Positions 1,466 to 64,000 of a stretch of 64,000 bases of DNA are shown one piece after another; the first letter of the stretch is position 1, and every line of letters begins with the position of its first letter. The position numbers were made by a program, and so were the translations under genes. A model generated the notes under the pieces. The model had not been told where the DNA came from. It saw only the letters and a program-made list of their open reading frames with translations, and ran no database searches. The DNA is taken from assembly GCA_963678705.1 (NCBI GenBank), contig OY783208.1, positions 6,882,001 through 6,946,000 of the forward strand. The letters are read 5' to 3'. Origin of the DNA: Panorpa germanica (taxonomy: Eukaryota > Arthropoda > Insecta > Mecoptera > Panorpidae).

Positions 1466-1853
1466 TTAAAATACATCGTTTAAGTTACGTTGAATTATGT
1501 TCAAGTTGGGTACTGCTCCTGCATATAACGTATACAATTGTCATCCACTTTATGTATGCATACTCATACATTAATATGTCTATGCATATATATTAGAGCT
1601 CTTATGACCAGTGTTAATTATATAAGAATTATATATAACAAAACATTACTAATAAAATATGTGTATCTTATTTTATATGGATGTATTAAAACATTAAATT
1701 TTATAATAATAAAACTCAATGGTTTGTGTTTATATATTATTATTTATTTACAAATATGCTATTTTTCAATTGTTATATAAATATACATTTTAATTATCTT
1801 AACTAAAACAGATATAAATTTATACAAAACTTAAACTTAACTTAAAATTAGTA

Positions 1854-2372: not shown

Positions 2373-2383
2373 CTCGAAAATTT

Positions 2384-3115: not shown

Positions 3116-3233
3116 TTTATTTAAGACTTTATAAATTTGTTTAGCGTCTTCAGTTATTTATTCAATAAATACTTTAACGCAATTAATACCTCTGTACGTA
3201 ACAAACTTACTTAAGGAATCATTAAAGGAACAT

Positions 3234-35379: not shown

Positions 35380-38300
35380 ATGCCGAGGAGAAGACGACCT
35401 AACTTAGGTCGTCGTAGTCAATCAAATGTGCGAAGAGCTACCTCACGTGCTAACCGCACTGATGACCAGAGACAGACAGATCAAGAAAATAGTCGTATTG
35501 CTATGTCAGAATTGCGTTCTTTGGTGAGTGACAATGTAGGAGATAGGCTTAGAATGCAACGAGTTCGTGCACATCAAACACAACAACAGCAAGCTAGACA
35601 TAATGAAATTGAGCGAATCCGCAGACGCAGTGCTCCTGTGATTCTTGAACGAGCTGCATTCCACTATGATCCGGCAATTGATTATTGTGCCGACAAATCG
35701 GTAACAATTGGGGAAATGAAAACAATTTGTAAATATTGTAAGGCGTTAAAATACACTGGTGAATCTACTGGATTATGTTGTGCTGAAGGCAAAGTAAAAT
35801 TGCCACAATTGGTCCCACCACCAGATCCTTTACGCTCTTTGGTTTCTGGGATTGGAAATGATTCTAAGCACTTCTTGACCAACATTCAGAAATATAACAA
35901 CTGTTTCCAGATGACATCATTCGGTGCTACACATATTATACAAGACAATTTCATGCCCACTTTCAAGGTATTATATAAGAATATTTTTTTATATTATTCA
36001 AGTTTGTACTAAAATATATATATCGGAAATTATTAATGGACAAATTTTTAAAAATTACAGATTCAAGGACAAATTTATCACTTACTGGGAACTCTGTTAC
36101 CACTAACTGATGCAGATCATCAATTTTTACAAATTTATTTTATGGGCAATTCAGATGCGGAAATTAATAATCGTTGTGCTCACAATCCAACAGTGAAGAG
36201 AACCATTGTCCAACAATTACAAATATTTCTTCATCAGAATAACAATTTAGTAAACATGTTCAAAATAGCATTGGATCGGATGCCATCTGATAGCCATAAT
36301 ATTATTATTCGAGCTGACAAAACACCTGCCGGTGAACACACAAGGAGGTTCAATTCACCTACCATTGATGAAGTGGCTGTTGTCATTGTGGGCGAAAATT
36401 TACAATCTAGAGATATTGTGCTTCATCGTCGGAATAGTGAGTTAAAACGTGTATCTGAAACACACAGGAGTTATGATGCACTACAATATCCTTTGATCTT
36501 CTGGCAAGGGGAAGATGGATACCATTTTAATATCAAAATGGTAAATCAAGTAACAGGTAAATGAATTGAACAAGATTAAATAATATTTTTAAATTCAATA
36601 CATCTAAGTAACAATTTAAACATTTATCATTTTTGATCGCAGGTGCTGAAACCAACAAAAAAGTTAGTGCTATGAATTTCTATTCATACAGACTCATGAT
36701 CCGTCAAGGTGAAGTAAATCATATTTTGATGTGTCAACGACTTTTTCATCAGTTTGCAGTTGACATGTATGTCAAAATTGAGACTGAACGATTGACATAC
36801 ATCCGTTTGAACCAACGACGGCTACGGTCAGAGGAATACATCCATCTCCGCGATGCTATAAATGCTGATGGCAATGTGAATAATGTAGGAAGAATGACAA
36901 TTTTGCCAGCTACTTATATAGGAAGCCCACGTCACATGCATGAATATGCTCAGGATGCTATGTCATATGTTAGGCATTATGGCCGCCCAGATTTATTTGT
37001 TACATTCACATGTAACCCAAAATGGTCCGAAATCGAGAAGGAATTACTACATAGCCAAACACCAGTTGATAGACATGACATAACTGCCAGAGTTTTTAAA
37101 CAAAAATTAAAATCTCTCATGAATTTTTTAATAAAGCATTGTGTGTATGGCCGAGTCCGTTGTTGGATGTACTCTGTAGAATGGCAAAAGCGTGGATTGC
37201 CACATGCGCACATTTTAGTCTGGTTAGTGGACAAAATAAGGCCAGATGAGATTGATTCTATAATTTCAGCTGAAATTCCAGATGAAATAGTTGACCCAAA
37301 ATTGCATGCAGTAGTAACCAAACACATGATACATGGACCTTGCGGACATTTCAACTACAATTCACCCTGTATGGTCGACGGTAGGTGTTCCAAACGATAC
37401 CCAAGAGACCTGCTTGCTCAAACCATAACGGGAAATGATGGATACCCATTGTATCGTCGGCGATCAGTTGCGGACAGTGGGCGATCGGTAGTTGTGAAGG
37501 TAAGAGGACAAAATGTTGATGTAGACAATCGTTGGATTGTGCCATACTCGCCAATATTGTCCAAAGCTTTTGAGACTCACATCAATGTGGAATATTGTAA
37601 TTCTGTGAAGTCGATAAAGTACATATGTAAATATGTTAATAAAGGTAGTGATATGGCTGTCTTCGGTGTAACCAATGCAAATGATGAAATATCACAGTAC
37701 CAGATGGGTCGCTATGTAAGTAGCAACGAAGCTATTTGGCGTATCTTTTCATTTGCGATCCATGAAAGACACCCTACAGTAGTCCATTTGGCAGTCCATT
37801 TAGAAAATGGTCAACGAGTTTATTTTAATGAATCTAACGCGGCAGACAGGGCGGCACATCCACCGTCGACAACATTAACAAGTTTCTTCACAGTTTGTCA
37901 AACTGATGATTTTGCTCGCACTTTGCTGTATGCTGACATGCCACGCTATTACACATGGAACGCATCATCGAAATCGTTTCAGCGTCGAAAACAAGGAACA
38001 CCAGTTGAAGGACATCCAAATGTATTTGCTTCAGATGCTCTGGGTCGCATCTACACAGTACATCCAAATAACGATGAATGTTATTATTTGCGGTTGTTGT
38101 TGGTGAATGTTCGTGGTCCGACATCGTTTAAACAACTGAGAACAGTTAATGGACAGCTGTGTGCGACTTACCGTGAGGCATGTCAACTATTACATTTACT
38201 TGAGAACGATTCGCACTGGGATGATACGCTCAAGGATTCCGTAATATCTTCGTCGCCGCATCAAATTCGTACATTGTTTGCGATTATCATATCGACATGT

Positions 38301-39968
38301 TTCCCCTCGAATCCAAAAGATTTGTGGGTTAAGTATAGAGATGACATGTCTGAGGATGTTTTGTATCGTGTGCGCCGTCAAACTTTGAATCCTACACTAC
38401 AAATGACTGAAGAAATTTACAATGACACATTGATCATGATAGAAGATATGTGTTTATTGATGGCAAATAAAGTATTGTCGTGTTTGGGAATGACAGCACC
38501 CAATCGTCATATGCACGATGCATTAAACCACGAGTTGCAAAGAGAACATCAGTACGACATTGAAGCATTGGCCGAAACAGTTCGTACAAATGTTCCACAA
38601 TTAAATCAACAACAAAGAATTGCGTACGACACTTTGATAGAAGCTGTGAACAGTGGATCTGGTGGAATTTATTTCCTTGATGCTCCCGGAGGAACCGGAA
38701 AAACGTTTTTAATTTCATTGCTTTTGGCGAGGATCAGATCGCGAAATGATGTTGCTCTAGCGTTGGCTTCATCTGGAATAGCTGCAACTCTGCTCGAAGG
38801 CGGGCGAACTGCACATTCTGCCTTGAAATTACCACTAAACATGCAAATCACCGAAACACCAATTTGCAACATCGCCAAAAATAGCGCAATGGCCAAGATC
38901 CTACAGGTATGCAAATTAATTGTTTGGGATGAATGCACAATGGCCCATAAGAGGTCACTGGAGGCACTGAACAGAACGTTGAAAGATCTTCGTGACAACC
39001 AAAATATTTTCGGTGGGGCCATGATTCTGTTGTCAGGTGATTTTCGTCAGACTCTTCCAGTTATTCCCCGATCAACTGTTGCTGATGAACTAAATGCATG
39101 CCTAAAATCATCAAATTTGTGGCAGTACGTAAAGACACTCCACTTAACAACTAACATGCGAGTATTTTTGCAACAAGATGAAACTGCTAATGTGTTTGCG
39201 AAGCAGTTGTTAGACATTGGAAATAATAAAGTTGCAGTGGACACCTCGACCGGATTCATCACATTACCTACAGATTTCTGTCACATCACAGACTCAAAAG
39301 TGGAGCTTATTCAGCGAGTTTTCCCAGATATAGCGCAAAAGTTCAATAACCATAATTGGCTGGGTGAACGAGCAATATTAGCAGCGAAAAATAATGATGT
39401 AGAGGATCTTAATGCGACCATTCAGAATTTTCTTCCAGGACAGTTGGTTTCCTTCAAATCAGTCGACACCGTAATGAACCAGGATGACGTAATCAACTAT
39501 CCCACTGAGTTTTTAAATTCACTGGAATTGCCTGGATTACCACCTCACAATTTGCAGTTAAAAGTAGGATCAGTTGTCATCATGCTGCGTAACATTAATC
39601 AACCTCGACTATGCAATGGAACAAGACTGGCTGTGAAAAGACTGATGAATAACGTCATTGAGGCGACAATCATAAAAGGAAAATACAAAGGAGAGGATGT
39701 CTTGATCCCGCGGATACCGATGATTCCAACGGACATACCATTCGATTTTAAACGCTTACAATTTCCAGTACGTCTGGCCTTTGCGATGACCATAAATAAA
39801 TCGCAAGGACAGTCTTTAGAAGTTTGTGGAATCAACTTGGAGTTTCCCTGTTTCGCGCATGGACAATTATACGTCGCGTGTTCGCGCGTCGGAAAACCGT
39901 CTTCTTTGTTTATTTACGCACCACAAAACAAAACAAAAAATATAGTTTATGAGAAAGCTTTAAATTAA
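35380..39968 (+). CDS. Helitron Rep-helicase (RepHel), three exons, about 1469 aa
   Basis: The exons are 35380-35967, 36061-36556 and 36643-39968. GT-AG introns of about 90 bp lie between them, and the phases fit (FMPTFK/IQGQIYH and VNQVTG/AETNKK). The product nicks, strand-transfers and unwinds DNA for rolling-circle transposition. The N-terminus is basic with a zinc-like CKYCKALKY...GLCC. The HUH nuclease shows RGLPHAHILVWL (HxH) and the two-tyrosine motif YICKYVNKG. The PIF1-type helicase shows APGGTGKTF (Walker A), IVWDECTMAH (motif II) and VACSRVGKPSSLFIYAP near the end. All key residues are present. The third exon opened as a frame from 36633, but its first three codons are intron. Confidence 0.93.
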
Positions 39969-44610: not shown

Positions 44611-44938
44611 ATAATTGTGAAACCAGGTCCTTCGAAATTATATATCACGATACCGCTGAACTATCGAAGAAGAAACATTGCACTGAAGATTAGCTAGCTG
44701 CCATATAAGTCTACAATCTAGACAATCAGGTACGTGTCCAGCTTATCTTATTCAACATCCATTCATTTAATTTAATATCGATATACTATCATACATTTTG
44801 GATTTTTCATTACGTTTCTCTCAAAATAAAACTCATACATTTATATAAATTTATATACACTATAATACCTTTAAATAAAATTCTAAAAACTGCCATTTTA
44901 AACTCCACTTATCTCATTTTCTAATAACCGATTACAAC

Positions 44939-47900
44939 ATGTCACTACTAAAAAGATTAAAAATTAAGAGCGCTGCAATAAAGGAAGACTTATTATCACA
45001 TGATAGGTATTGCGAAACCATTGACATACACAGCAATACCTACGATTACTGTGAGATTAAGATAAGAAAGACTTCTTTTGCACCGCTTTTAGAGCAATTT
45101 AAGGATATTTCAATAGACTTAAAATTGAACAGTACTAATGAGGATAAAAGCGACGAAAAGCAAAGTGAAGTGTTAGAATTTCAAGATAAATATTTTAAAA
45201 TAATGGCCAAATATGACAAAATAATTGCTCTTGAAGAATCATCTTCACTTGTTAAGGTTAACAGCCAATCAATTGTCTCCTTGCCAAATATAGAAATACC
45301 TTCCTTCCACGGGGATATAGGGCAATGGGAGTCCTTTAAAGAAACCTTCACGAGTCTGGTGCATAACGAACCCAGTTTTGATATAATGAAAAAATTCCAC
45401 CACTTGAAGAATTCTTTAAAGGGCGATGCAGCATCGGTGCTCTATTCCTTGCAACTTATTCCGTCAAATTACGAAATTGCTTGGCAAATGTTGGTCAGGC
45501 GATTTGAAAATAAGAAATTAATAACAATACACCACCTCAAGTTCTTTATGGAAACGCCAGCAATCAGTTATCAATCAAGCTCAAAGCTAAGAAACCTAAC
45601 GGACAGTCTCACAAAGCACATTAGAGCTTTACAAACTCTAATTCCCCAAGAAATGCTTTTTGATACCCTTATAAATTATATTGCACTAAACAAATTAGAC
45701 AAAATTACTCAGACTGAATGGCACAAGTCACCCGAAGCCGCAATAGACAATCCGACCTTCACCTCACTACTAAACTTTTTATCTGACAGAGCTACATTGC
45801 TTGAAACCATGTCAGGCAATATGAAAGGACTGTCAGGTGTAAATACAAGGCAAACTTTTGTAGCCAGTCAAGCGCGAAAATGTTCTATCTGTAAAAACGA
45901 CCACCAAACTTTTAAATGCCCTGATCTATTAAAATTATCTATCTCAAATCGATACGCAGAAATAAGTGAAAGGCAATTATGTTTCAATTGCTTAAGGACT
46001 GGACACACAAAGAATGAATGCTCCTCTATTTTTCGCTGTCGGCTTTGTGATAAAAAACACCACACTATTTTGCATCAGCAACAGGATGCTGATTTTGATT
46101 CAACAACTGACCCCAACATTACATTATCAAACACCAGCCGGCTAAGTAACCATAACCCTGTTTTGTTATCAACAGCTGTTGTGCAAGTAGTTGACGCCAA
46201 TAATAAGCTGTGTACTGCTAGAGCTTTACTTGATAGTGGTAGTCAGAGTAGTTTTATATCGGAATCGCTCGCAAGGAAATTAAAAATACCACCTAACAAA
46301 AGTAACATATCAGTTCTGGGTATAAGCAGTGCAAAAACTCAAATTACTAAATCACTAACAATAAATATAAAATCCGTGCACACTCATTTTGCAACAAAAT
46401 TACACTGCCTCATTTTAAAAAAAATCACCGGAAACATTTCTTCAACAAATCAAGATCTTACCGACATTACTATACCGAAAAACGTTAGTTTGGCTGATCC
46501 ATCATTCCACAAATCTGAAAAAATTGATTTATTACTAGGCGCGGATATATTTTGGGATTTGCTGCGTGTCGGGCGCATGAGCTTGGGAAAGAACAAACCC
46601 ACGATTCAAAAGACCACCCTGGGCTGGATTGTCACAGGTTCTTACTGTAACAAAAGCAGCAGGCAACGACACTGTTACTTTTCTCAACAGCAAGAAATTC
46701 AAAATCAATTAAAATTATTTTGGGAGTTAGAATCGGTTAATAACGTAACATCACAATCAGAGGAGGAGATTGCATGTGAAACTCACTTTAAAAAGACTAC
46801 CTGTCGAAATCAAGATGGCCGTTTTGTTTGCAAAATACCATTTAAAGAACCCATTCATTTACTCGGTGAATCAAACAAAATGGCTATCAAACGATTTTAT
46901 TCACTGGAGAAAAAACTTCAGACTAACCCACAATTAAATGAGTTATATTCCACTTTTATGAAGGAGTATTTAAGCAATAAACATATGTCCTTAAACAATA
47001 ACCAAAACACCACTTCACAATCCTATTTTTTACCCCATCACGGGGTGTTAAAACCTACTAGCACTACCACCAAATTGCGGGTGGTATTTGATGGCTCTAT
47101 GAAAACCACTTCCGGATATTCCCTCAATAAATTGCAAGCAGTCGGACCTACGATACAAAATGATTTGGTATCCATCTTATTAAGATTTAGACAATTCACA
47201 TACGTTGTAGGCGCCGACATCGCAATGATGTACCGGCAAGTGCTAGTTCACGAATCCCAAAGAGACCTTCAACAAATACTTTGGAGATTCAGCCCCAAAG
47301 ACCCTTTATTATCATATAGGTTAAACACAGTCACCTACGGCACTGCTTCAGCTTCCTTTCTGGCTATTAGAAGTTTGTGTCAACTTGGGTATGATAATGA
47401 AATATCAAATCCTAGCGCTTCCAAGGCCATTTTAGAGGATTTTTATGTTGACGATCTCTTGACGGGATCCGATACTATTAACAACTTAAACATACCTCGT
47501 CACTCATTAATTATAAACCACGTAAACGTGCTATTACATAGATTTTGTGATGCCTCCGAAAAAGCATACGGAGCTTGTATATATCTAAGAAGCACTAATG
47601 TTCTCGGCAACGTTAAAATTTCACTATCGTGTGCAAAGTCAAAGGTCGCTCCTTTAAAAACTATAACCATTCCAATACTTGAGCTGTGCGCTGCCGTCAT
47701 CTTGACTAAACTGTCAACAAAAATTATCAACACACTCTCCATCAATCTATCAGACATATATCTGTGGTCTGACTCCACCATAGTACCATCATGGTCACAA
47801 CACACTCCGAACACTTTAAAGACCTTTGCGTCAAACCGTACATCAGAAATTCTATATAACATGACTTCCAATCATCATTGGCGTCATGTGAATTCTAACT

Positions 47901-48691
47901 CAAATCCGACAGATTTAGTATCACGAGGTGTAGAACCTCAAAACTTAATAGAGAATTCGCTTTGGAGGTCAGGGCCTTCTTGGCTACACAATGTAGAAGA
48001 AGCTTGGCCTACCAGCGAATTCACAATAAATCATATACCAGACATGCGTAAATGTACTACTATCAGCACTCATACCAAATTAGAAACCGATATATTTTCT
48101 TTGTATTCATCATTAAGAACACTGATGAAAACGCACATGAAGAGAGTTTTGAAAAATTCAAATTTAACGTGTTATAGTGTATTGGTACAAATTGAAGCCA
48201 AACTAAATTCACGTCCATTATACCCTATGTCCACCGATCCTTCAGACCTCCGTCCCATCACACCTGGACACTACCTGGTTGGTGGACTGTTGACAGCCCT
48301 CCCAGATGTTGATTACACAAACACTAAAATGAACAACTTACCGCGCTTCCATTTTATTCAGCAGCTTCTGCAGCACTATTGGAAACGCTGGTCAGCCGAC
48401 TACGTTAACCATCAACAACAACGACAAAAATGGAAAAGAGCCACTGGACCCAACATCACACCTGGAATGCTGGTTCTCATCAAAGAAGACAACGTTCCAC
48501 CTCTGCAATCGATACTAGGTCGTGTTGTTCATTCAATTGTTGGCTCTGACGATCAAGGTCGGGTCGTGGTCATAGCCATCCAAGGAGGACAAATTAAAAG
48601 GGCTGTAAGAAAACTAGCACCCCTGCCCGAGCAGACAAATTGGAATTCGAGCGAATCCAACGCCGGGACCATGGACGAAATCCAACAGTAA
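44939..48691 (+). CDS. BEL/Pao Gag-Pol polyprotein, 1250 aa, lacking RT thumb and integrase core
   Basis: One unbroken frame from ATG. Gag spans about 1-300; zinc knuckles follow (CSICKNDHQTFKC, CFNCLRTGHTKNEC, CRLCDKKHHTILH at 314-379). The aspartic protease has LLDSGSQSSFI (about 430-440). The reverse transcriptase has VVFDGSMKTTSGYSLN, GADIAMMYRQV and FYVDDLLTGSD (YVDD at 836-839). Only 14 residues later comes IPRHSLI and then RFCDASEKAYGACIY, the RNase H start, so the thumb/connection is gone. RNase H continues to DLVSRGVEP. After WPTSEF the zinc H2C2 and catalytic DD-E core of the integrase are absent, and the frame resumes at THMKRVLKNSN...QIEAKLNSRPL and the C-terminal domain. The stop codon lies inside the 3' LTR. 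The product cannot integrate by itself. Confidence 0.9.
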   Translation: MSLLKRLKIKSAAIKEDLLSHDRYCETIDIHSNTYDYCEIKIRKTSFAPLLEQFKDISIDLKLNSTNEDKSDEKQSEVLEFQDKYFKIMAKYDKIIALEESSSLVKVNSQSIVSLPNIEIPSFHGDIGQWESFKETFTSLVHNEPSFDIMKKFHHLKNSLKGDAASVLYSLQLIPSNYEIAWQMLVRRFENKKLITIHHLKFFMETPAISYQSSSKLRNLTDSLTKHIRALQTLIPQEMLFDTLINYIALNKLDKITQTEWHKSPEAAIDNPTFTSLLNFLSDRATLLETMSGNMKGLSGVNTRQTFVASQARKCSICKNDHQTFKCPDLLKLSISNRYAEISERQLCFNCLRTGHTKNECSSIFRCRLCDKKHHTILHQQQDADFDSTTDPNITLSNTSRLSNHNPVLLSTAVVQVVDANNKLCTARALLDSGSQSSFISESLARKLKIPPNKSNISVLGISSAKTQITKSLTINIKSVHTHFATKLHCLILKKITGNISSTNQDLTDITIPKNVSLADPSFHKSEKIDLLLGADIFWDLLRVGRMSLGKNKPTIQKTTLGWIVTGSYCNKSSRQRHCYFSQQQEIQNQLKLFWELESVNNVTSQSEEEIACETHFKKTTCRNQDGRFVCKIPFKEPIHLLGESNKMAIKRFYSLEKKLQTNPQLNELYSTFMKEYLSNKHMSLNNNQNTTSQSYFLPHHGVLKPTSTTTKLRVVFDGSMKTTSGYSLNKLQAVGPTIQNDLVSILLRFRQFTYVVGADIAMMYRQVLVHESQRDLQQILWRFSPKDPLLSYRLNTVTYGTASASFLAIRSLCQLGYDNEISNPSASKAILEDFYVDDLLTGSDTINNLNIPRHSLIINHVNVLLHRFCDASEKAYGACIYLRSTNVLGNVKISLSCAKSKVAPLKTITIPILELCAAVILTKLSTKIINTLSINLSDIYLWSDSTIVPSWSQHTPNTLKTFASNRTSEILYNMTSNHHWRHVNSNSNPTDLVSRGVEPQNLIENSLWRSGPSWLHNVEEAWPTSEFTINHIPDMRKCTTISTHTKLETDIFSLYSSLRTLMKTHMKRVLKNSNLTCYSVLVQIEAKLNSRPLYPMSTDPSDLRPITPGHYLVGGLLTALPDVDYTNTKMNNLPRFHFIQQLLQHYWKRWSADYVNHQQQRQKWKRATGPNITPGMLVLIKEDNVPPLQSILGRVVHSIVGSDDQGRVVVIAIQGGQIKRAVRKLAPLPEQTNWNSSESNAGTMDEIQQ

Positions 48692-50312: not shown

Positions 50313-51488
50313 CTATTTATATTCTTTGCTATGTTTATTTTTATGTTGTTTTAAGTAAGATGCTTGACTAAACAATTTGTTACATACATCACAAGAAAAT
50401 GGTTTCAAACCCAAATGTATGTTTTTATGTTCTTTCAAAGTAGATGACCGACGAAACGTTTTATTACATACATCACAAGAAAATGGTTTCAAACCTAAAT
50501 GTATGTTTTTATGTCGTTTTAAAGTAGATGATTGACAAAACGTTTTATTACATACATTACAAGAAAATGGCTTTAAAACTGAATGTATGTTTTTATGTTG
50601 TTTCAAAGTAGATGACTGACTAAACGTTTTATTACAGACATCACAAGAAAATGGTTTCAAACCTAAATGTATGTTTTTATGTTGTTTCAAAGTAGATGAC
50701 TGACTAAATGTTTTATTACAGACATCACAAGAAAATGGTTTCAAACCTAAATGTCTGCTTTTATGTACTTTTAAATTTGATGAATGACTAAACGTTTTAT
50801 AACATACGTTGCAAGAAAATGGTTTTAAACCTAAATGTGTGTTTTTATGTTGTTTCAAAGTAGATGACTGACTAAACGTTTTATTACAGACAACACAAGA
50901 AAAAGGTTTCAAACCTAAATGTATGTTTTTATGTTGTTTTAAATCAGATGGCCATTTAAACGTTTTATTACACTCGTTACAAGAATGTAGTTTCATTGTT
51001 GAATGCATTTGCAAATGTTTTATAATTTCTGCTTTATTCTTAAACGATTTGCTACATACTTCACAGATGTAAGGATTCAGTTTCGTTTTTACTTTGTCAG
51101 TCTGTAGTCGTTCACTATTCAGCGAAGCGTTGGGTTTTTCAAAGGTGACCTCCACATTTTCCTTACATACAGGAGAGTGTTTTAGGTGGTCTTGCAATTT
51201 GGTAGCGTCTGGAAATTCGTCCTTACAATAATCACAAACTAAAACTGATGAATCATCCATGGGCTCTAATTTGATAAAATAACTTCCAGTAGTAGTTTCC
51301 ACTGAACTATTGCCGAGTTCTTCTTTAATTTCTGTTTTTATTACAGGACATTGCTCTGCATCTTTGACAACGCGTCGTCCTTCGTTTATTTCTATTTTGA
51401 TATCTTCGTTTACTTCGGCTGGTTCCATAGGTCCATTTAACCCTACATCAATTTCTAGTTTTATTTGCTTGGATTTGTAATCCTCCAT
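50313..51488 (-). CDS. C2H2 zinc-finger protein, 391 aa, paralogue
   Basis: The start ATG at 51488, the N-terminal psi-K-x-E sites (IKLEID, IKIEIN, IKTEIK, IKLEPM), the variant finger CDYCKDEF and the first regular finger CEVCSKSF correspond to the 419-aa gene at 24842-26101. It has nine regular fingers, one fewer. Fingers differ in recognition helices: here CYKTFSHSSNLKVHKSRH and FRRSSTLKEH occur, not found in the other. Linkers are LGLKPFS, with one SVLKPFS. The frame is intact. It is probably a nuclear DNA-binding protein with partly different target preference. Confidence 0.9.
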   Translation of the reverse strand: MEDYKSKQIKLEIDVGLNGPMEPAEVNEDIKIEINEGRRVVKDAEQCPVIKTEIKEELGNSSVETTTGSYFIKLEPMDDSSVLVCDYCKDEFPDATKLQDHLKHSPVCKENVEVTFEKPNASLNSERLQTDKVKTKLNPYICEVCSKSFKNKAEIIKHLQMHSTMKLHSCNECNKTFKWPSDLKQHKNIHLGLKPFSCVVCNKTFSQSSTLKQHKNTHLGLKPFSCNVCYKTFSHSSNLKVHKSRHLGLKPFSCDVCNKTFSQSSTLKQHKNIHLGLKPFSCDVCNKTFSQSSTLKQHKNIHSVLKPFSCNVCNKTFCQSSTLKRHKNIHLGLKPFSCDVCNKTFRRSSTLKEHKNIHLGLKPFSCDVCNKLFSQASYLKQHKNKHSKEYK

Positions 51489-52840
51489 TGTAGTACAATG
51501 ATTTTAGAGTTTACTAAAAATAAAGAAATCAATTTATTACCACCATAAAGAGTATAATCTTAAAAGCGAAAGAAACCGCATGCCATAATTAAGAAAACTA
51601 AGTAGGATTAAGTTAATTTAATGTAAAACTGTATTATAAGGAATTATTCCTTCGTAAAACATTACAAAAACAAGTAAATGTGATTAGTGATAATGTTATA
51701 GCATGATTTTAGCAATTTCAATGATGTTGTTAATAATTAGTTTGTTTCGAATTAACTGACGTTTGTATCCATTATAATTAAGAAAATGAAGTAATTAATT
51801 AAATCGGTCTTTATTTAGTTAGGCTACATTTTTTGTTTTGAAAGTTGTAAAATGAACTATTGCCCTTTTGTACGTTTAATGTCCTTTTAATATAGTCAAG
51901 AGACGTACAAATGATTACGTAATAATCATTATACCACGATAAATTAAGAAATAGAGAATATTCATAATTAAAGTTGACTAATGAATGTAAAATAGATGTC
52001 ATTTATGTGGAACAACGTCGTATTATTTCTAACCTCATATTATAAATTTCACCTTTAAATCTAAAAGACTATTTTTTAATTGAAATTGAAAATTTAATTG
52101 AAATGACTATTAAGTAATGTTTTGTAATGGTAAAGTACATGTTTTGAGTACAGAACAAGCTCCATAAAACATAAAGTGCAATTGTCTTTTTACAAGTTTC
52201 AAAACATTTAATAAAGCTGAACTAAATAATTATCATTAAATCTATAATAAAATACAATTAAAAATACCTTTGTATATTAATTAACACACTATATTATTCG
52301 AATGTCCACTGCAGTTTCTTTTCGTGAAATATTACTTACAGTAATAAACAAATAGCCGTAGTGTTTTACTTGTACTTATGATAGAACTGTCAAAAGCAAA
52401 GTAGGTATTTCAGTACCCGCCATCTTAAATACATTGGGTCCAGGGATATAGTTGTGTCCTTGAAATATGTTTTACTTCTTAGGAATGCAGCACTTTTAAT
52501 AAATATTTTAAATATATTTAATAATTTAAGACAAGTACTGTATATATTTTCGTATTAAGAAATAGCGAATTTGTTCAACGCGTACATACATGCAGCTTCT
52601 TTATCAGTGCCAGAAATAGCTATATCGACCAGAGACACGTTCTTAAAAGAAAGGGAATGATAGAAATATAGATAGAATATGGGAAGAATAATTATATACT
52701 AAAATATATATGTATTTATTACACAATTCACGGCTGCAAGTATGTACAGCTTTGACAGTTGCAAACAGAGAGAGAAATAAAAGCTGATACAGAGATCTGT
52801 TTTTAACAAAAGAAATGATGCGAGTCTAGGGTGAATAATA
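51489..52840. other. 5' flank of the zinc-finger paralogue
   Basis: It is the partner of 26102-27440, including the diverged TIR element at about 51820-52210. It ends with GAATAATATAAATGACG, the uninterrupted target of Harbinger copy A. No gene. Confidence 0.65.
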
Positions 52841-53568: not shown

Positions 53569-54408
53569 TGTAACCCTACCCCCTTATATCTACTATCTAT
53601 ATATGGTGGTAGTTACTTATTTTATGAGAACGATTTTACAATCGTCTCATGCGAAGAGTTCGTTTAGAGATCTGGATCTCCTTGAGTCGGATGACCTAAG
53701 CTAATTGTGGAGGTATATATAACTATCAGGACTTATTACCTCATCTAATCATATTACATAAATATATTAGGTTTTACTTACTTTTTGTACTTTCTGCAGG
53801 CAGCTTCCTCTGCTTTGGACAATCACTTTATTTAACGCGATGCGACCGTTAACTCTAAGTACTTTTACAATTAAAACAAGGGAATCATTAACACTTAATT
53901 CTTTATTATTCAAACAATTACTTAATACAAATCTTAGTAACTTTAATAATCTTTGGGACGACTATGGCGACTAACTTAAAACCGACTGACTCTCTGGGGA
54001 TGATCTGATGGTCTGACCCCCTCTCCTTTCTTAAACTCGGTTTATATAGATTCAAACTCTTTGTTTCAAAAGATGACCTCATTTAAACTTATTCCGTCAT
54101 CATAGCTTTGGTTTTTGAGTTTGGTTTTAATATAAACATTATTTGTATCTGCACGTGCCTATGCACCAAGGAAGTTAGTTAATATTTCTCTTAAAAGTTA
54201 TTGTAAATACTAAGTCAGCATTTCTGAATATAATACTAATATGAGACATGGTCCTATCGATAAAGCTATACTTAATGTAAACAAAGTTCCCGCCAGTTAG
54301 GAGCCTAAAACTATTAAAAATACTTTGTATGTGAACCTACCAATGGTTCCTAAATAGTTAGTTAAAATATATTATCAATAATTAATGAATCTATATGGGA
54401 CTGTTACA
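53569..54408 (-). repeat. Gypsy 3' LTR (840 bp)
   Basis: In element orientation it begins TGTAACAGTCCCATATAG and ends GGGGGTAGGGTTACA. A TATATAAA box lies at 54041-54048 on the element strand, followed by a purine-rich AGAAAGGAGAGGGGG leader start. Confidence 0.9.
54041..54048 (-). promoter_or_regulatory. TATA box of the Gypsy LTR
   Basis: TATATAAA on the element strand about 360 bp into the LTR, in the usual U3 position for RNA polymerase II initiation. Confidence 0.6.
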
Positions 54409-54424
54409 TTGTTTCCCGTTTTTA
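54409..54424 (-). promoter_or_regulatory. Gypsy polypurine tract
   Basis: AAAAACGGGAAACAA on the element strand adjoins the 3' LTR. It is the expected primer for plus-strand synthesis. Confidence 0.7.
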
Positions 54425-56517
54425 AATTAAAATCTATAATCCAATGATTATAATTTTATTAGTCTTTCCCGTATTTCTAGATTCATTCATAATTGAAACC
54501 TTAATAAAATAAATGTAATATAAAATTTAAATCAATAAATCAATCATATATAGTCGTTGGTAATTAAAATAATTCTTCTTTATCTGCTTTATGTAGGTGA
54601 TTTTGTTCTCATAATTTCATTTCAAAATGCGACAAACTTTGATAAATAAGTGAACACTTTCTTCGTTTCGAATACGCTCTGCCTCGCTTTGTTTTCGAAT
54701 GCGTCCTTGTCCTACTGCTTTGCATCTGGCTTCATATTCCGTATAAACAATACTGATAGTTTTTTAATGGTCCATTACATTTGTAAATTCTCGTTCTGTA
54801 CAATACTTGTAGATTAATACACATGATATATGTTTTCTTCTTAAGTGGTTACTGCTTCACTTAGACCCTTAATTTCTTCTCGATTATTCACGGACTTCGT
54901 CATTTCGTATTGTTTTCTTCATCTTTCAATTTGCATCGATTTCATCGGAATCTTCATCTCATAACGACTTGCATTCTGGTAGTTTCTCTCGTACATTCGA
55001 TCATTGACTCGTTCAAGTATTCACACTTATTACCTTAGTCTTACGCATTATGAAAATCAACTATTTGTCTCATCCTTCAGTTCTTCGTTGTGGTAAATGC
55101 TGCAATTTATACCCTTACGTAATTATCTTAATTATAAATTCATTTTCTGTCTTCTTTTCTATAATTTCTTACAATTGACATAACAAATTTGGCTCCTATA
55201 TAGCTCTTTTACTAATAATTCGATTACCTTAACTTAGAAGTTATAGTCATTACAAAATATGAATTTATTTCATAGCATATCTTAATTTCTAGTTATTTTA
55301 ATTATATTTTAAACATAACATGTAAATATCTTACGGCATGTGTTTCTTTTTTAAATATCATCTTATTACTTTTTTTTCTTTGATTGTATATATGTTTTCC
55401 AATTTTGCAATATTTATGCCATAAATTATTTTCATATCTCTTGCAAACTACTGTTAATTCTACATAATAATAAAATTTAATGTAAACATATTTTTTTTCC
55501 TTAATTCAAATACAAATTTAACTTTTCTCTTAAATTTAGAATTAATATTTCATACTTTAGATTATACTTTTATTAACGAATATTTTAATGAACTTATTCT
55601 CATTTACTGTATTTTTTCCATTTAACAAATTTATTATATTTATTTCTTTCAAATCAAAACGTTATTCTAACATGGTTATATCAAAAATTATTTTTAAATC
55701 TATTTATTATTTTTAAACAACAAAATCTTACTTTATAGATACTTTACTCAAATACTATAATCAAGGTAAACATAATTATTAAACTTCAACACTTGTTACT
55801 TGAATTTAAAACAACTTTTTATATTCGCATGTAGTAATACATGTGTTTCACAAAATAAAATTTCTTTTCTCTATATTATATTATATCTCAATGCAATTTT
55901 ACATTACAAGTGTTCAAATTTTCAATGAATACCTCTTATCAATTTTAAAATCTTCTTCTTTCTCTATTAAAGTTTTCAAAACAATCTGTGAACAGAAAAC
56001 ATTTTAATTTATTCAATATTTATGATATAAAATCTTCAATTAAGTCATCTCATCCTATTTGCTGCATTTATTATGTATCTTGTCCATCTGAAATTATATA
56101 GCATTAGTATATCTCAATAAAACATAAAAATAATTATTCTTTAAACGTTATTGTTACTCATGTTTCGTACATCTGTAACTTCTGGTCTAATTTGTATATT
56201 ATTGTACCCTTATCTAATTTATGTTCTCCAACCCCCTGTTAGAAATCTTATTTATGTTCACTTATATTCTCAAGTGTTAATTTCTTCTATGACCTTTCTG
56301 ACTCGAATTTCAATACATCTGTTACAAATAACTTTAGTCTCTAATTATATGTTTATTTTCTTAACTCATGACCTTTCTGTTTTTATGTTTATTTTACTCG
56401 TAAAATATTAAAGTACAATATTAGTTCCACTTAACTATTTTAACGATTAAATAATCCCTTTTTTAAATTGACCTTAACTAATTTATATCCTATTGAAACT
56501 CTGACAGTTATAATTAG
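54425..56517. other. Gene-free 2.1 kb between integrase and 3' LTR
   Basis: In envelope-carrying Gypsy elements an env gene would be here. On the element strand I find no long frame, no signal peptide and no cysteine-rich ectodomain. An 86-codon hydrophobic frame on the opposite strand (56151-56411) is a by-product of AT-rich composition. It is probably a long 3' untranslated region or a fully decayed env. Confidence 0.5.
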
Positions 56518-57570
56518 TTATATTCTACTATTCGATATCCACGGTTGTTTTGGTGCAACGCATCGGCTGCGCAAAGAGTAACTATGCCCAATTGTATCTT
56601 CAACTGGATTTTCTATCTCAATATCAATATTCTCTATATTGTCATTATTATCAATATTCGTGTCTATCTCGATTATTTCTTCTATCTCATCTGATATCTC
56701 ATTATTCGTATCACTAGTATAACCCAAATTCAATAAATTACCGAAACCTGTATTTAGATTCGTACCATTTTCTTCATCTTCAGATTCACTTTCTGAATGA
56801 ACTTCATTATTTTCTGAAAATACCTCAGCTGTATTACCTTTAAATTTCTTGAGGCGATTAACATGCACTCGTTCTTCTCGTTTACCATAAATTTCTTTTA
56901 TTAAAAAATTTACTTCGCTGGTTCTATCAATAATTCTATAAGGTCCTCGCCATACTTTTCCAAGCTTTCTACTTAATCCTGGTGTGTGCGTCATATGTTT
57001 CAATAGCACATGATCACCTATTTTAAATTTGACCGGTTCCGACTTTTTATTATATTGTTTAGCTTGTCTATCTTTTGCTGTTTCTAACCTTTCTGTACAT
57101 AACTTAAAAGCGTTCTTTAATCTTAAAATTAATTCGGCGGCATAATTATTATCGAGGTCGTATCTAACTCTTTCTGGTTTTAATACTTCACCATATGGTA
57201 ATACCATATCACGACCATGCATTAGAAAAAATGGTGTTTCTTGTGTCGAACTATGTATAGCTGCATTGTATGCCATGACAGCGTAGTTTAAACAGGAATC
57301 CCAATTCCTTTGATCAGAATCCACGAAATGTGACAAATAGTCTTTTAATATACGATGACAACGCTCTAAACTTCCGTTTGTCGAAGGAGAATACGCTGAT
57401 GTTGAAAGTTGCGTAATGTCTAGTCTTTTACAAACGTTTCTAAATAATTCGGACAAAAAGTTAGTACCTCTATCTGTCAATAAAGCTTTAGGAGTACCAT
57501 AACGTGCTATAACTTGTTCACAAAATACCTTTGCTACCGTTTCTGCAGACTGATCAGGTATTGAAAAACG
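56518..57570 (-). pseudogene. Gypsy integrase, second half (after a frameshift)
   Basis: Coding resumes one frame away from the main Pol frame at about 57570 with PDQSAETVAKVFCEQVIARY. It contains LTDRGTNFLSELF (second catalytic Asp) and STNGSLERCHRILKDYL (catalytic Glu), then the GPY/F module GPYRIIDRTSEVNFLIKEI and an acidic tail. The two halves would join with one base change near 57565-57590, where GCGTTT occurs twice 13 bp apart. The long acidic tail after the GPY/F module (SESESEDEEN, then many Glu/Asp/Ile repeats) is unusual. There is no ATG; the frame depends on the part above. Confidence 0.85.
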
Positions 57571-60500
57571 CTTTTACAAACGCTTGCAAGTATTTTGAGA
57601 ATGCACATTGAACTGTTAAAATGTACTTCATTCCTGAATTACTGAGTACTAATGGTCCTACAATATCTAGTGAAATTCTTTCAAATGGATAAGTAAGCGG
57701 TTTAAATTTCTGTAACGGTGCTCGTTTTAAATGAGGTGACGTTTTTCTCATTTGACAGCTTAAACATTCTTCACAATATCTTTTTATGTCTTGTCTCATT
57801 GCTGGCCATACAAAATGTTTCTTTATTATCTGTAGTGTCCCTTCAAATGCCCTATGCCCTGCTGAAGGCGTATTGTGAAACATATATAATATATTCGGTA
57901 CCATTCGTGTTGGTGCTACTACACAGTCATTTCTATCTGTTTTTTCATTACTTTTCTTATATAGTATACCCCTATCATCTAAATAATAATCATTTTTCTC
58001 CCCATACTTAGTTTGTGTTATTAATTGTTTAATATGGGAATCACTAGCTTGTTCATTTTTAATTTGACACCAATCCCAATATGGAACTTCTTCAGCTGCT
58101 ACGGCTGCAATACTTTCTGTTTCTATTCTACTTAATGCATCGACATTACCGTGTTTTACCCCTGGTCTATAAATAATTTCAAAATCGTAATCTGCTAAAG
58201 TTAAAGCCCACCGTGCTAATCTACTTTTCATTGGATCTTTCATAGTCATTAACCAACGTAATGATCTGTGATTTGTTTGAATCTTAAATTTCTTACCATA
58301 TAAGTACGTACGAAAATGTGATAAACTCCATAAAATCGCTAAACATTCCCTTTCTGTGGTTGAGTAATTTTTCTCACATTTATTTAATTTACGAGAAGCG
58401 TATGCTACAGGACGTTCTACTCCATCCTGAACTTGGTTTAGGATTGCACCTAATGCGATTCCTGATGCATCTGTACCTAATATAAATTCTTGACTAAAAT
58501 CTGGGTAAGCTAAGACTGGCTCAGAACATAACGCGTTTTTTAATGCTTCAAAACTTTTCTCTTGTTCAGGTCCCCAAATAAATGACTCATTTTTGCATGT
58601 TAGTTTTGTTAGGCTTGATGATAATTCTGAAAAATTCTTTATAAATCGTCTATAAAATGAAGCTAACCCTATAAAAGATCGGATTTGTTTAACTGTTTTC
58701 GGACGCGGATAGTTTCTAATTACTTCCGTTTTTTCTGGATCTGCCTTTACACCATCACTAGAAATAATATGACCAAGATATTGCGTTTCTTTATTCATAA
58801 ATTCACATTTACTAGGCTTCAATGTCAAACTTGCTTCTCTCAAGCGATCGAAAACCTCTTTAATTCTCTGGATATGTGAATCTACATCATCGTTACTAAA
58901 TATTATAATATCATCTAGGTAAACTAAACAATGTACTCCGGTTAAACCCGCTAACACTGCATACATAAGTCTCTGAAATGTAGCAGGAGCTGATACTAAC
59001 CCAAACGGCATAACATTAAATTGAAGGTGTAAATCAGGTGTTGAAAATGCTGTTAATTCTTTAGATTTTTCGTCCATTTCAATTTGCCAAAATCCCGATG
59101 CTAAATCTAATTTGGTAAATAAACTTGCTTTGCCTAATTTATTAAGAGTGTCTACTAAGTGTGGTAATGGAAAGTAATCTCTTTTTGTTATTGCGTTAAG
59201 ACCCCTGTAATCTATGCAAACTCTAACCTTGTTTTCCCCATTTGCTGCTTTCTTATTTACAAGAACAACATTACTGGACCACGGTGACATTGATGGTTCT
59301 ACTATGCCATCTTCAAGCATTTGATCTATCTGTTCTCTCAGTACCTGTAACTGTGCATGCGGAACTCTATATGGTTGTTTAGTTATAGGAGGAACATCTT
59401 GAATTATTATCTTATGTTTAACTATCGAGGTAGTCTTCAATTCTTGACCCTCTGTTAAGAATATGTCGCGATATTCGTAAATTAAATTTTCCATTTTACT
59501 TTGGTCTCTAGCACTTAAATGATTTAACTTTATTTTACTAAAAAGTTCCGTTATTCTCTGTGTTTTATTTATATCATCATTCTTATGACTTTTTTGCTTC
59601 CACTGATTGGTAACTTCATGTATAATTTTATCTTCTTTAGCTGTTAAATTATTATAACCTATTTCATCAAATAACTGTATATTTTCAAACCCTGCGTTTA
59701 ATTCTGCTGATCGTACAGCACCAATTAAAATATTTTTATTACGTTGCCGGACGTGTTCTCTTAATAATTCAACTGTTTCAGTATATTCGTTATCATATGG
59801 CTCTATTATACCTATCTTAGTATTTATTGGTATATTAATATTCTTCTGCGTAACATTGGTTATTCTACATATTAACCTACCCTTACATATTGAATTTACA
59901 CTTCTTGCTACTAATACTCCATCTATACTCAATTCTGGGTTAAAAATCCCATGACCTTCCTTAATGTCTTTTTGAAATGCATGAACATTTATTGTACATC
60001 GGGGCGGTAACGTTTCTTGACCTAGTAACCTAACACTATACCGATTACTACTACACGTGTGTGCGTCTGTTCGCTTTCGAGTGGTCTCAGATTTCTTACT
60101 CATATTATTTATGTTTATTTTTTCTACTCGCTCAGCTGTGTGTATTCTTTTTAACCACTTTGTTTGTAAATTCTTCCATTTCTTTATCTGTTCTTCGGCT
60201 TTAACATTCTTTCCGTCAATGTTATCTTTTAAATCATTATCATTTTTATTTATTACACAGTTCATATACCTTTTTTCATCTTTTTCCGATTCGCCATCAT
60301 AGAATGCTATCTTTATTTTACATTCCGAAAATATATATTCAATCATTTTACTCACTATTGTAAAATCTAATTTATCTAGCCCACATGCTATGTATGGTAA
60401 TGCAATAAATTTCACTTTATTTTCTAACATATGATCCCGTAATTTAATTATTGACGAATATAAATCTGCGTAGAGAGGTTTCTCGTTACTCCTCTTCTTT

Positions 60501-61377
60501 GTCACTAAATAATATATAAAACGATTTTCATCTTTTAATATAGCTAATCCACCCTTTTCCTGTTTCTGTTTCAAAAGCTGCTCAACTCTACCAAATCTTT
60601 CTTTAAATTCAACTGCTATTCCTTGTGACATACGTAAATCTGAGGCTACACAATGACCCAATGCATACTTGCTAGATGCATTAAACAAATCTCCCTTATT
60701 AAAATTTATACTGCACAACGTCTCTATCGTTGGAAATCTACTATTTTTCCATTTTAGAAAATCATCAAAACTTTTATAATCGTGCCCTATCTTATCAATT
60801 CGCTGATTATTTACTTCTCTTTTTACGTCAATATTTTCTGTTTCAGTACAACCTATATTTCTACCTTTTCTATTCTTTTCTACGATTTTCCCTGACTTTG
60901 ATATAATACGCTTTTGCTTTCTAATGATACCATTTACATTTTCTCTAATCATATTATTTATATTTAAATTATCTCTCTGAAAATCATGTACAGTATTACG
61001 ATTAATGTCGTAAATAACGTTTCTGTATATTAAAATACCCTTTCCAAAATCTACAATTATCCCAAATTTACGAAGAAAGTCTAACCCAATTATACCTGTC
61101 CAATTTTCCATTACATTATCCCCAAATAAATCTAACTTTAATCTGCTTTTACCAAGTGTATGTATTTTATTATTTTGTGCATTTCGCAAAATATTTTGCG
61201 ATTCTGTAATTTTTTCTGTTTTTAAACATTCTCTAGTTAGTAGGCTGGCGCCTGCACCACTATCTATAAGAACGTTGCAATTTTGACCATTAATTACTAA
61301 ATTAAGAAACCATTGATTATCATGAAATGCCGGTACATACAACTCTGTAAGATTACCCTTTTTACTTATTGAATGGC
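57554..61377 (-). CDS. Gypsy Pol: protease, macro domain, RT, RNase H, integrase start
   Basis: The frame overlaps the end of gag in the -1 frame and is open upstream to about 61377; residue 1 is counted from 61342. Protease: LIDSGAGASLL at 25-35 and IIGLDFL at 84-90. Macro domain: about 210-350. A linker and a conserved pre-RT segment (LPPRCTINV...GVLVARSV) follow. RT: VRVCIDYRGLN (707-717), MPFGLVSAPATFQ, YLDD at 809-812. RNase H: TDAS at 957-960, TTERE, then TNH at 1023-1025 where TDH is expected, and NVDALSR. Integrase zinc finger: HNTPSAGH with C1193/C1196, first catalytic Asp in ERISLDIVGPL. The frame ends at 57554 through a frameshift, so integrase is split. Confidence 0.92.
60293..60715 (-). 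other. Macro domain (TARG1/OARD1-like ADP-ribose glycohydrolase) inside Gypsy Pol
   Basis: Residues 210-350 of Pol match the fold landmarks of the human terminal ADP-ribose glycohydrolase TARG1 (OARD1): FNKGDLFNASSKYALGHCVA, then DLRMSQGIAVEFKERFG, YYLVTKKRSNEKP, and LPYIACGLDKLDF. TARG1 uses a Lys (K84) and an Asp (D125) to remove ADP-ribose from Asp/Glu side chains. The equivalents here are K282 in LVTKK and D323 in CGLD, both present. It is in the same uninterrupted frame as protease and RT, so it is part of the polyprotein. Its substrate in the element's life cycle is unknown. A role against host ADP-ribosylation is an inference. Confidence 0.9.
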
Positions 61378-62487
61378 TTCTACGTCTCGGGTAGTGAGTG
61401 AAGCCATCAATCCGTTTAAATTACCCTCATAATTATTGGACGCGCGTAAATTTCTTTCTTCTACTTCGCTTGGCTTATTTTCGATGCTGCGAATATTTCT
61501 ATTACTTTGGAAAGTCACTTGTCTCTGATTTCTCGCAGGACTACGGCTATCATTATATTCTTGGAGGACTCTAACTCTCCCTAATCGGTCATTACTTTGA
61601 CTACGGTTTCCATACCTATTTGAACTGCGATTTCTTTGAAATCGATCTCTTACGTCTCTTATCTCCCGTTGAGGACGACTACGACAATCTCTCTGAAAAT
61701 GTCCTACTCTGTTACAATTATAACACCTTGCACCATCTCTTTGCCTATTATTAAACCTACGGCCTTGTGAACCGCTACGCGTGTTGCTAGGTCGCATAGA
61801 CGATTGATTATTTTGAGATATGCGATTTACATAATAGTGGTCGGTTCTATTTACTCGGTTTGTACCCCCTGTAGCAATCTCTGCTACGTAGCCTTGCTTC
61901 GATGAGACTAAATCATCGGTTTCTACCCTTTCCGCAATTTCAACGGCACTATTAAAACTCTTGGGATCCGCGGCCCAAATAAACTTAGAATATCTCGGCG
62001 ATATCCCTTCTTTAAATCTTTTTAAAACGGCTACTTGCAACTCAACTGTAAGCTTCTTTTCTTGCTCTTTATCAATTGCTTCTGGTACACATTTTGACCC
62101 TAATGCCCATAACCTTTGTGAAAATTCATAAACAGTCTCGCCATGTCTTTGTTTACAACCCCCGAACTCAATTTCTGCTTGTCTCAGAGCAGATGGCCCT
62201 TTTCTGCTATATCTAGACAATAATGCATTACGAATACTCATATAACTACGGTTCTCGCTTTGAACCTCCGAATTAGACAAAAGATATTCAGCTACATCAG
62301 GCGACACTTTCGCAAATACGGTAACTGATTGCACCTTATCGGTCCAATCCAACAACTCTGCCATTTGATCCACCGCATTTAAAAATGTTGCTATGCTACC
62401 TGTACCGTCAAAGAATGGTATATAATTCAATCCTTTTAATTTAGGAATTTCTGGGGCAATAACTGCGTTTGTTTCATTAGCCGTCAT
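61366..62487 (-). CDS. Gypsy Gag, 373 aa
   Basis: The frame starts at ATG 62487. Residues 20-200 form the helical retrotransposon gag region (FFDGTGSIATFLNAVDQMAE, then SYMSIRNALLSRYS and ETVYEFSQRLWALG). A basic Arg/Asn/Ser-rich stretch precedes one CCHC zinc knuckle, CYNCNRVGHFQRDC at 255-268, followed by more Arg-rich sequence that binds RNA. It assembles the cytoplasmic particle. The pol frame overlaps the last codons in -1, so Pol is made by ribosomal frameshifting. No classical slippery heptamer was identified before the stop. Confidence 0.92.
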   Translation of the reverse strand: MTANETNAVIAPEIPKLKGLNYIPFFDGTGSIATFLNAVDQMAELLDWTDKVQSVTVFAKVSPDVAEYLLSNSEVQSENRSYMSIRNALLSRYSRKGPSALRQAEIEFGGCKQRHGETVYEFSQRLWALGSKCVPEAIDKEQEKKLTVELQVAVLKRFKEGISPRYSKFIWAADPKSFNSAVEIAERVETDDLVSSKQGYVAEIATGGTNRVNRTDHYYVNRISQNNQSSMRPSNTRSGSQGRRFNNRQRDGARCYNCNRVGHFQRDCRSRPQREIRDVRDRFQRNRSSNRYGNRSQSNDRLGRVRVLQEYNDSRSPARNQRQVTFQSNRNIRSIENKPSEVEERNLRASNNYEGNLNGLMASLTTRDVEAIQ

Positions 62488-63730
62488 TTTAACTATTTGG
62501 AATAAACTTTAAATCAAATAAAAACCTTTAGTAAGCTTCAATAAACTACTCCAAATATTTTAAAATCTATTTTTTTTTAAAAGTAAACAATATCTTACAC
62601 GGCCTTAGTTATTTTAACAAAACTGTACGCTTGTGATTTACTTTTTGAAACGAAATGGAACGTCTAGTTGTTTATATCTACATAAAAATAAACAAACAAA
62701 TTATTTTTAAGTAGGTCAAACAAAATGCTAGTATATTTAATATAGACTGTTTTTAGAACAATAAAAACCCAAATAAAAATTATGACAAACAGTATTTATG
62801 ACAAAAGTATATTAACGAATTGTAAATTGATAAAATAATTTTTAATTATTAGTGAAATAAAATCAAATAAACTATTTTATGTAATACTCAATATTTTCTC
62901 ATATAATCTAAAAATAAATTCAAAATAATTTCAAATAAGTTGTGTTACAAATTTTTTAATCGTTCCAATCACTTAATAAAATTACGACAAAACAAAAACT
63001 ACTTATTTTTTCAATTCCTGTTACAATGACTCTAAACTTTATACTTTATAAAAACGTGCCACTTTACTTGTGAATTACAAAAACTATTTTAAAAAATATT
63101 CCTTATTTAGTTACGGTTAAAACAAAATATTCAACTTTAACAAGTTATGGTTTAGAAAAATTATCTACTGTTTAGTTCCTTAAATTTATTCCCTTTTACA
63201 AAAACTTAAAATACCCCACTCTTTGATTATTTAAATATTCCCTTTTCTTGAATTATGCTGATATCTTTTCTTTTTCTAACTATTAATCTGCAGTTGCTAG
63301 TTGCAATTAATAAACTATATTCCTTTTTTCCAATTAATCCTTTTTATCCGTTTTTCCCAGTTATTACAATTTATTCCTTTTTTCACAACTAATAAAACTT
63401 ATTTTTATTTCTTTTTCACAGTTACTAAGATTATCCCTTTATTTTCTCAAATTAAATTTTCCACTTAATGCCTTTTTTCCAAATTACTCAAATTTCTGCC
63501 TTTTTTAATATCCCACAATTTTAATACCTTTTTTAACGTATCTCTCTTTTAAAATACCTTACAAGTTCTATACCCTTTTTCTTTTAAATGACCCCACAAT
63601 TTCAATACCTCTCTTTTAACATATTTCTCTTTTAATACACCTCTTTTCAATACACCCCACAAATTTCGTATCTCACGTATTTTCGTATTTTAACGTATCT
63701 CTCTTTTAATGCACCTCTTTTTAAATGACC
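62488..63730 (-). other. Gypsy leader with irregular purine/pyrimidine repeats
   Basis: The 1.24 kb leader has no gene. Between about 63170 and 63720 the plus strand carries many loosely spaced CCTTTTTTC and CTCTTTTAA blocks, so the RNA has A/G-rich blocks (GAAAAAAGG, TTAAAAGAG). This is a degenerate array, possibly a packaging or dimerisation region. Confidence 0.6.
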
Positions 63731-63745
63731 CCACACCTGACACCA
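63731..63745 (-). promoter_or_regulatory. Gypsy primer binding site
   Basis: On the element strand TTACA-TTT-TGGTGTCAGGTGTGG follows the LTR with a 3-base gap. Its complement CCACACCTGACACCA resembles the 3' end of tRNA-Leu. The assignment is from memory and tentative. Confidence 0.7.
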
Positions 63746-63748
63746 AAA

Positions 63749-64000
63749 TGTAACCCTACCCCCTTATATCTACTATCTATATATGGTGGTAGTTACTTAT
63801 TTTATGAGAACGATTTTACAATCGTCTCATGCGAAGAGTTCGTTTAGAGATCTGGATCTCCTTGAGTCGGATGACCTAAGCTAATTGTGGAGGTATATAT
63901 AACTATCAGGACTTATTACCTCATCTAATCATATTACATAAATATATTAGGTTTTACTTACTTTTTGTACTTTCTGCAGGCAGCTTCCTCTGCTTTGGAC
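63749..64000 (-). repeat. Gypsy 5' LTR, partial
   Basis: It matches 53569-53820 without a difference I can see and continues past the window end. About 590 bp of this LTR are missing. Confidence 0.92.

Follow-up and report, generated by a model that had tools for sequence, protein, structure and literature searches.

The 64,000-nucleotide stretch of Panorpa germanica DNA analyzed here (the window; contig OY783208.1, positions 6,882,001 to 6,946,000) contains a Ty3/Gypsy long terminal repeat (LTR) retrotransposon of the Metaviridae on the minus strand, with no visible env gene. A complete macrodomain of the TARG1/OARD1 type is confirmed to lie within one open pol frame of this element, between the protease and the reverse transcriptase (RT). 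The explanation we favor, at a probability of roughly 0.6, is that a TARG1-type mono-ADP-ribosylhydrolase was taken into pol by the lineage of this element, where it would undo marking by host PARP-type enzymes.

The pol frame comprises 1288 amino acids from stop to stop (57554-61420, minus strand) and encodes the protease, the macrodomain, a linker, RT, RNase H, the integrase zinc domain and the start of the integrase core. An earlier sequence-only reading had proposed a TARG1/OARD1-like macro domain between the protease and RT of a Ty3/Gypsy Pol, quoting four sequence blocks from an uninterrupted frame; all four are found in this frame, which runs without a stop from 61420 to 57554. The best match among PDB sequences is TARG1, with a phmmer E-value of 3.3e-37 over 137 residues (TARG1 residues 22-158 of 171). 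Five PDB sequences are matched at E≤1e-3, and all five are TARG1 (named O-acetyl-ADP-ribose deacetylase 1 or C6orf130), with no other family among them. A hidden Markov model, whose profile included the window's own row, places the domain at Pol residues 233-375, which correspond to 60296-60724 on the minus strand. The interval proposed earlier was 60293-60715 with no strand given; one plus-strand frame translated across it contains several stops. The general Macro model of Pfam finds the right place only weakly and misses its threshold (E 0.017; 15.5 bits versus a cut-off of 22), so that the Pfam search suggested earlier would by itself have fallen short.

Structure prediction, one of the checks suggested by the sequence-only reading, likewise yields a TARG1 fold. 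The AlphaFold2 model of the domain, built on an alignment of 12 stand-alone TARG1-like relatives, has a pLDDT of 90.8. When this model was submitted to Foldseek, the first eight rows were TARG1 (TMq 0.87-0.91), followed by DarG; the model matches the TARG1-ADP-ribose complex 4j5s with a TM of 0.91 (rmsd 1.4). Chance similarity was considered and rejected on the basis of the TARG1 match, the fold and a control in which both the first TARG1 profile and the iterated one were run on 726 Pol sequences that had been shuffled or reversed, none of which came up at E 1e-3.

The residues of the predicted active site are largely retained. An excerpt of a published account of human TARG1 names H32, C33, S35, T83, K84 and D125, with K84 and D125 as the catalytic residues (PMC6397177); the remaining TARG1 residue numbers used here were obtained by counting along the human protein from these positions. 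The window domain retains the equivalents of H32, C33, G43, T83, K84, G123 and D125, referred to below as the seven key site residues. When the frame is numbered from stop to stop, the catalytic pair is K308 and D349, spaced by 41 exactly as K84 and D125 are. The sequence-only reading had selected the correct residues, but its numbers (K282 and D323) are shifted by 26. The same excerpt gives a search pattern for TARG1, TKx(30,35)Px[IL]GxGxD (PMC6397177). The window domain fits with a spacing of 33, but one Gly is replaced by Ala and a strict match fails. Read by eye, this Gly position also deviates in five of the 12 stand-alone relatives, and the published pattern is therefore narrower than the family.

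Across its length, the window domain is 36-45% identical to the 12 stand-alone relatives that were found (≤49% in local alignments), a set that does not include the host's own gene. It keeps 24 of the 26 columns that are invariant among these relatives, and in the remaining full columns it is on average 33% identical to them. At the level of sequence, such retention of invariant columns amid divergence is the pattern of enzyme constraint and not of a passenger.

The remainder of the element has the features of a Ty3/Gypsy retrotransposon: the order protease, RT, RNase H, integrase; LTRs; and a Gag with a zinc knuckle. Its protease falls below Pfam cut-offs, its integrase is split and its 5′ LTR is cut. 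All parts lie on the minus strand. The gag open frame (61366-62508; 380 amino acids with a CCHC zinc knuckle, from open reading frames [ORFs] and Pfam) overlaps pol by ∼55 bases in a different frame. The aspartic protease region has approximate limits of 60971-61300 and was recognized from a LIDSGA motif at Pol residues 51-56, weak Pfam matches below cut-off to retroviral-type proteases, and alignment. A conserved linker precedes RT (59786-60058, limits approximate, from alignment with nine Pol proteins). This linker is common to relatives that carry no macrodomain, and the alignment places the macrodomain between the protease and the linker; a search of PDB returned no match to the linker. 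These features are followed by RT (58763-59254; PF00078, E 7.5e-38), with YLDD at Pol residues 834-837, by RNase H (58187-58501; PF17917, E 5.7e-40) and by the integrase zinc-binding domain (57737-57913; PF17921, E 4.5e-18).

The pol frame stops within the integrase core, so that integrase is interrupted in this copy at 57554-57573. The rest of the core and a p58-type C-terminal domain are encoded in a different frame at 56518-57573 (PF00665, 1.6e-6; PF22938, 2.6e-8), and the PF00665 match, at 28.7 bits, is under the cut-off of 32.6. In the alignment, the protease is ∼11 residues shorter than in all nine Pol proteins compared, the difference lying upstream of the second motif. The ∼2.7 kb that separate pol from the 3′ LTR (53821-56517) contain no ORF longer than 67 amino acids on the strand of the element, and no env is visible. 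An env gene may have been lost or may never have been present, and a degraded env that is too short or too diverged to be seen is also possible.

The window end cuts the 5′ LTR, leaving its inner part (63749-64000), and the corresponding 3′ part of the 3′ LTR occupies 53569-53820, with 53569 as the last base of the element. By blastn and string identity, the two LTRs are 100% identical over the 252 comparable bases, and the insertion is therefore young. Directly after the 5′ LTR, a stretch resembling a primer-binding site can be read at 63729-63748, which we take to be of the tRNA-Leu type; the window contains no tRNA gene with which to compare it. A split integrase despite identical LTRs could mean that the lesion is very recent, that the assembly is in error or that the copy was mobilized in trans.

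Domains of this kind are also present in other Gypsy Pol proteins. With Pol residues 450-1000 as the query, 4364 Pol proteins were matched and the best 120 were listed; the carrier counts given here cover these 120 plus the window and are not a frequency for Gypsy elements at large. The first TARG1 profile finds the domain in 24 of the 120 at E≤1e-3. An iterated profile finds it in 36 of the 121, including P0044 and P0051, whose domains are partial and were omitted from the macrodomain tree. The domain occupies three locations in Pol. It lies between protease and RT in the window and in P0020, between RNase H and integrase in P0037, P0044, P0048 and 30 errantivirus-like rows (one of which, P0051, breaks off before integrase is reached); in P0076 it follows integrase. 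Domain order was verified with Pfam in six carriers. Carriers with named sources include those from Uroleucon formosanum (P0095 and the cut-off piece P0051), Photinus pyralis (P0114) and Plutella xylostella (P0096), and one more, P0063, is filed under a Flavobacterium metagenome-assembled genome. Among bacterial and archaeal records, seven Gypsy loci were found, none with the domain at E≤1, and scans of viral contigs revealed no relative. A homologue search with Pol residues 200-420 under a full-length limit gave no match at E≤1e-3 among 460 candidates, which is probably an effect of the word prefilter, given that the database contains carriers that were found through RT.

These carriers bear on the possibility that the domain reached Pol only in this copy, through a chimeric assembly or a chance fusion. 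One frame is indeed broken in the window copy. However, a single open frame spans the region from protease to integrase, P0020 repeats the domain order that the sequence-only reading had proposed to look for, and the same kind of domain is present in 34 further Pol proteins. Because other Pol proteins carry it at the same or other places, a single-copy fusion is unlikely, and we regard an artifact of this kind as very improbable.

The relationships among carriers were examined with a tree of RT plus RNase H, for which 41 rows were hand-picked from the 120 after a first tree and the test groups were defined by domain presence; P0108 was left out for its short match. A single clade for the 17 carriers in this tree is rejected (AU p 1.9e-12), as is a group consisting of the window, P0020, P0037, P0044 and P0048 (AU p 3.6e-7). 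A scenario with one common ancestor that had the domain in one place is disfavored by the same tree (AU p 1.9e-12). The tree does not reject (p 0.41) a group of the window and P0020; taken together with their common place and local motifs, this suggests one capture for these two. By place alone, three insertion events would be needed unless the domain moved within Pol. Since the carriers do not form one clade and the domain is found in three places, it was gained or moved repeatedly, and this repetition points to a use of the domain.

However, a tree of the macrodomain itself, built from 140 columns and covering 11 of the 36 Pol domains plus 13 stand-alone proteins, does not reject a single origin of those Pol domains (p 0.31). 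One captured domain may thus have moved between elements, and this tree is too short to separate a single capture that moved from several cellular donations. In the larger macrodomain tree, the window domain groups with P0076 and two stand-alone proteins (starred, 97/80), whereas in the smaller tree its grouping with P0076 and stand-alone proteins is unstarred (90/76).

Most carriers belong to an errantivirus-like RT clade, in which 30 of 39 rows have the domain. One of them, P0095 from Uroleucon formosanum, also encodes a Baculo_F envelope, and the clade therefore includes an errantivirus. The window element falls outside this 39-row clade and, with no env seen and 67 amino acids as the longest ORF behind pol, does not qualify as an errantivirus. 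Within the clade the domain is mostly decayed, and its position is between RNase H and integrase. A profile built from seven of the decayed domains recovers TARG1 at E 4.6e-15; the seven segments were picked via matches to TARG1-derived profiles (two of them to the iterated profile only), so tests made with them are not wholly independent. Most errantivirus-like members have lost key residues, which suggests either that the pressure was lifted or that the domain acquired a second use next to integrase, for binding or as a spacer. With its key site residues mostly lost, the domain between RNase H and integrase probably persists in these elements for a structural or binding role.

In five rows (P0036, P0043, P0061, P0071 and P0083), the relic between RNase H and integrase is too changed for the first TARG1 profile. 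The relic segment looks well conserved inside this subclade, which suggests a new use. More broadly, we judge it somewhat probable that Ty3/Gypsy elements recruited a TARG1-type ADP-ribosylhydrolase into Pol at least three times, counted by place, and that a TARG1 macrodomain, mostly pseudoenzymatic, is hidden in the segment that separates RNase H from integrase in the large errantivirus-like clade.

Cellular TARG1 removes ADP-ribose from Glu and Asp side chains and from nucleic-acid ends. The favored proposal for the window element is that the domain derives from a cellular gene and would have been captured in pol, between the protease and the pre-RT linker. Going by the general biology of Gypsy elements and TARG1, it would be translated as part of Gag-Pol, and it may be packaged with RT and integrase and so be present in the particle and the pre-integration complex. 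There it could strip ADP-ribose from Pol, Gag, cDNA or nucleic-acid ends, or integration-site chromatin during reverse transcription and integration, which would reverse the marks set by host PARPs. The window domain is a putative enzyme with a nearly intact predicted site. Its competence as an enzyme, its packaging and its roles against PARPs or DNA-damage marks are inferences.

Several observations weigh against the eraser proposal. In the window domain itself, the equivalent of TARG1 Ser35, a contact of the distal ribose, is Ala. The nearest Pol by RT, P0020, is 57% identical and has its domain at the same place, but the catalytic Asp and other site residues are lost and only 17 of the 26 invariant columns remain; activity is therefore not conserved even in the nearest carrier. 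The domain is also dispensable, since close relatives without it exist (P0018, P0021-P0024, P0026 and P0028). With a broken integrase frame and an apparently shortened protease, the window copy is probably non-autonomous. Finally, 33 of the 36 carriers do not have the full set of seven key residues (the domains of P0044 and P0051 being partial), a pattern that fits a structural role too.

Such a role would make the domain a spacer or ligand-binding module: the captured TARG1 fold would serve the architecture of Pol, the assembly of particles or their tethering to ADP-ribosylated chromatin, and catalysis would be irrelevant. For the window element we consider this doubtful, though a serious candidate. 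The window and P0037 domains retain 24 and 25 of the 26 invariant columns, which goes beyond the needs of a pure scaffold, and these two, together with P0125, are the only carriers among the 36 that keep all seven key site residues. A passenger, that is, a piece of a host TARG1 transcript or gene picked up by chance, in frame and without function, would account for the absence of the domain from several close relatives, and LTR elements are known to take up extra genes, for example in bdelloid rotifers (an excerpt of PMC5408684). It is nonetheless improbable, as the far-diverged window domain still keeps its invariant columns, P0020 has the domain at the same place, and uptake recurs among the Pol proteins compared.

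The window as a whole is AT-rich and holds several mobile elements. A long open frame on the plus strand at 36612-39968 encodes a Helitron replication helicase (Helitron_like_N and PIF1). Also on the plus strand, a 1270-amino-acid open frame at 44879-48691 encodes a BEL/Pao polyprotein with Peptidase_A17 and no RVT or rve match at E≤1e-3. Pieces of a viral-type DNA polymerase B are found on the minus strand at 370-4097, with DNA_pol_B_2 and Endonuclease_7 matches at 2387-3157, and are possibly Polinton-like. Two near-identical copies of a 117-amino-acid frame are located at 370-723 and 1112-1465, and the end of this frame recurs within 1854-2396. Two similar single-frame C2H2 zinc-finger proteins, whose N-terminal halves are largely common, are encoded on the minus strand at 24842-26116 and 50313-51503 (Pfam was run on the first only).

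A nearly intact TARG1 domain in Pol, gains at multiple places and errantivirus-like relics suggest that ADP-ribosylation also restrains retrotransposons. If the repeated recruitment and the hidden errantivirus-like macrodomain proposed above hold, ADP-ribosylation would be a front on which retrotransposons and their animal hosts generally meet, with the pattern of an arms race in which capture is followed by catalytic loss. The analysis also identifies, in evolutionary terms, a Pol segment that goes unrecognized by Pfam, and it offers three domains with all seven key residues (window, P0037 and P0125) that are directly testable.

The novelty lies in a TARG1-type domain inside a Ty3/Gypsy Pol, and the errantivirus-like clade is potentially the larger finding. 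Among the best matches of a literature search, no paper on a macrodomain inside Ty3/Gypsy Pol was found (a directly relevant recent survey of envelope-carrying Gypsy elements, Chary and Hayashi, eLife 108449, lay outside its scope), and the excerpts of PMC12992720, PMC12993057, PMC13172572 and PMC11952523 contain nothing on the subject. The statement of the sequence-only reading that no described LTR retrotransposon uses a macro domain must be softened, since an excerpt of a review (PMC4977317, citing Basta et al. 2009) states that macro-domain proteins are encoded by some epsilon-like endogenous retroviruses of fish. Like the window element, these are reverse-transcribing elements with an acquired macro-domain gene. 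In contrast, they are vertebrate retroviruses with additional ORFs, whereas the window element is a Ty3/Gypsy element with a domain of the TARG1 type within the Pol frame.

Macrodomains of RNA and DNA viruses (Kadipiro virus VP8, thrips virga-like viruses, alphaviruses and coronaviruses) are virus-borne too, but these viruses are not reverse-transcribing. The top viral structure match is Kadipiro virus VP8 (BFVD A0A8E0KJF2), a protein with a TARG1-like macrodomain that is 47% identical to the window domain and is apparently another capture. The alphavirus and coronavirus domains belong to another macrodomain type, in line with their 12-16% identity to the window domain. RNA-virus macrodomains are described as counter-defenses against host PARPs in excerpts of PMC5156301 and PMC10499221.

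Insect errantiviruses, represented by P0095 from Uroleucon formosanum, share with the window element a Ty3/Gypsy Pol with a TARG1-derived domain. In errantiviruses the domain is mostly decayed and follows RNase H, ahead of integrase, whereas the window element is outside their clade and has no visible env. The closest counterpart of the domain is cellular TARG1 (terminal ADP-ribose glycohydrolase 1, also OARD1 or C6orf130), which it resembles in fold, length, the Lys-Asp spacing of 41 and most binding-loop residues. TARG1 is a small stand-alone protein, whereas the version in Panorpa germanica is a domain inside a retrotransposon Pol, with Ala in place of Ser35.

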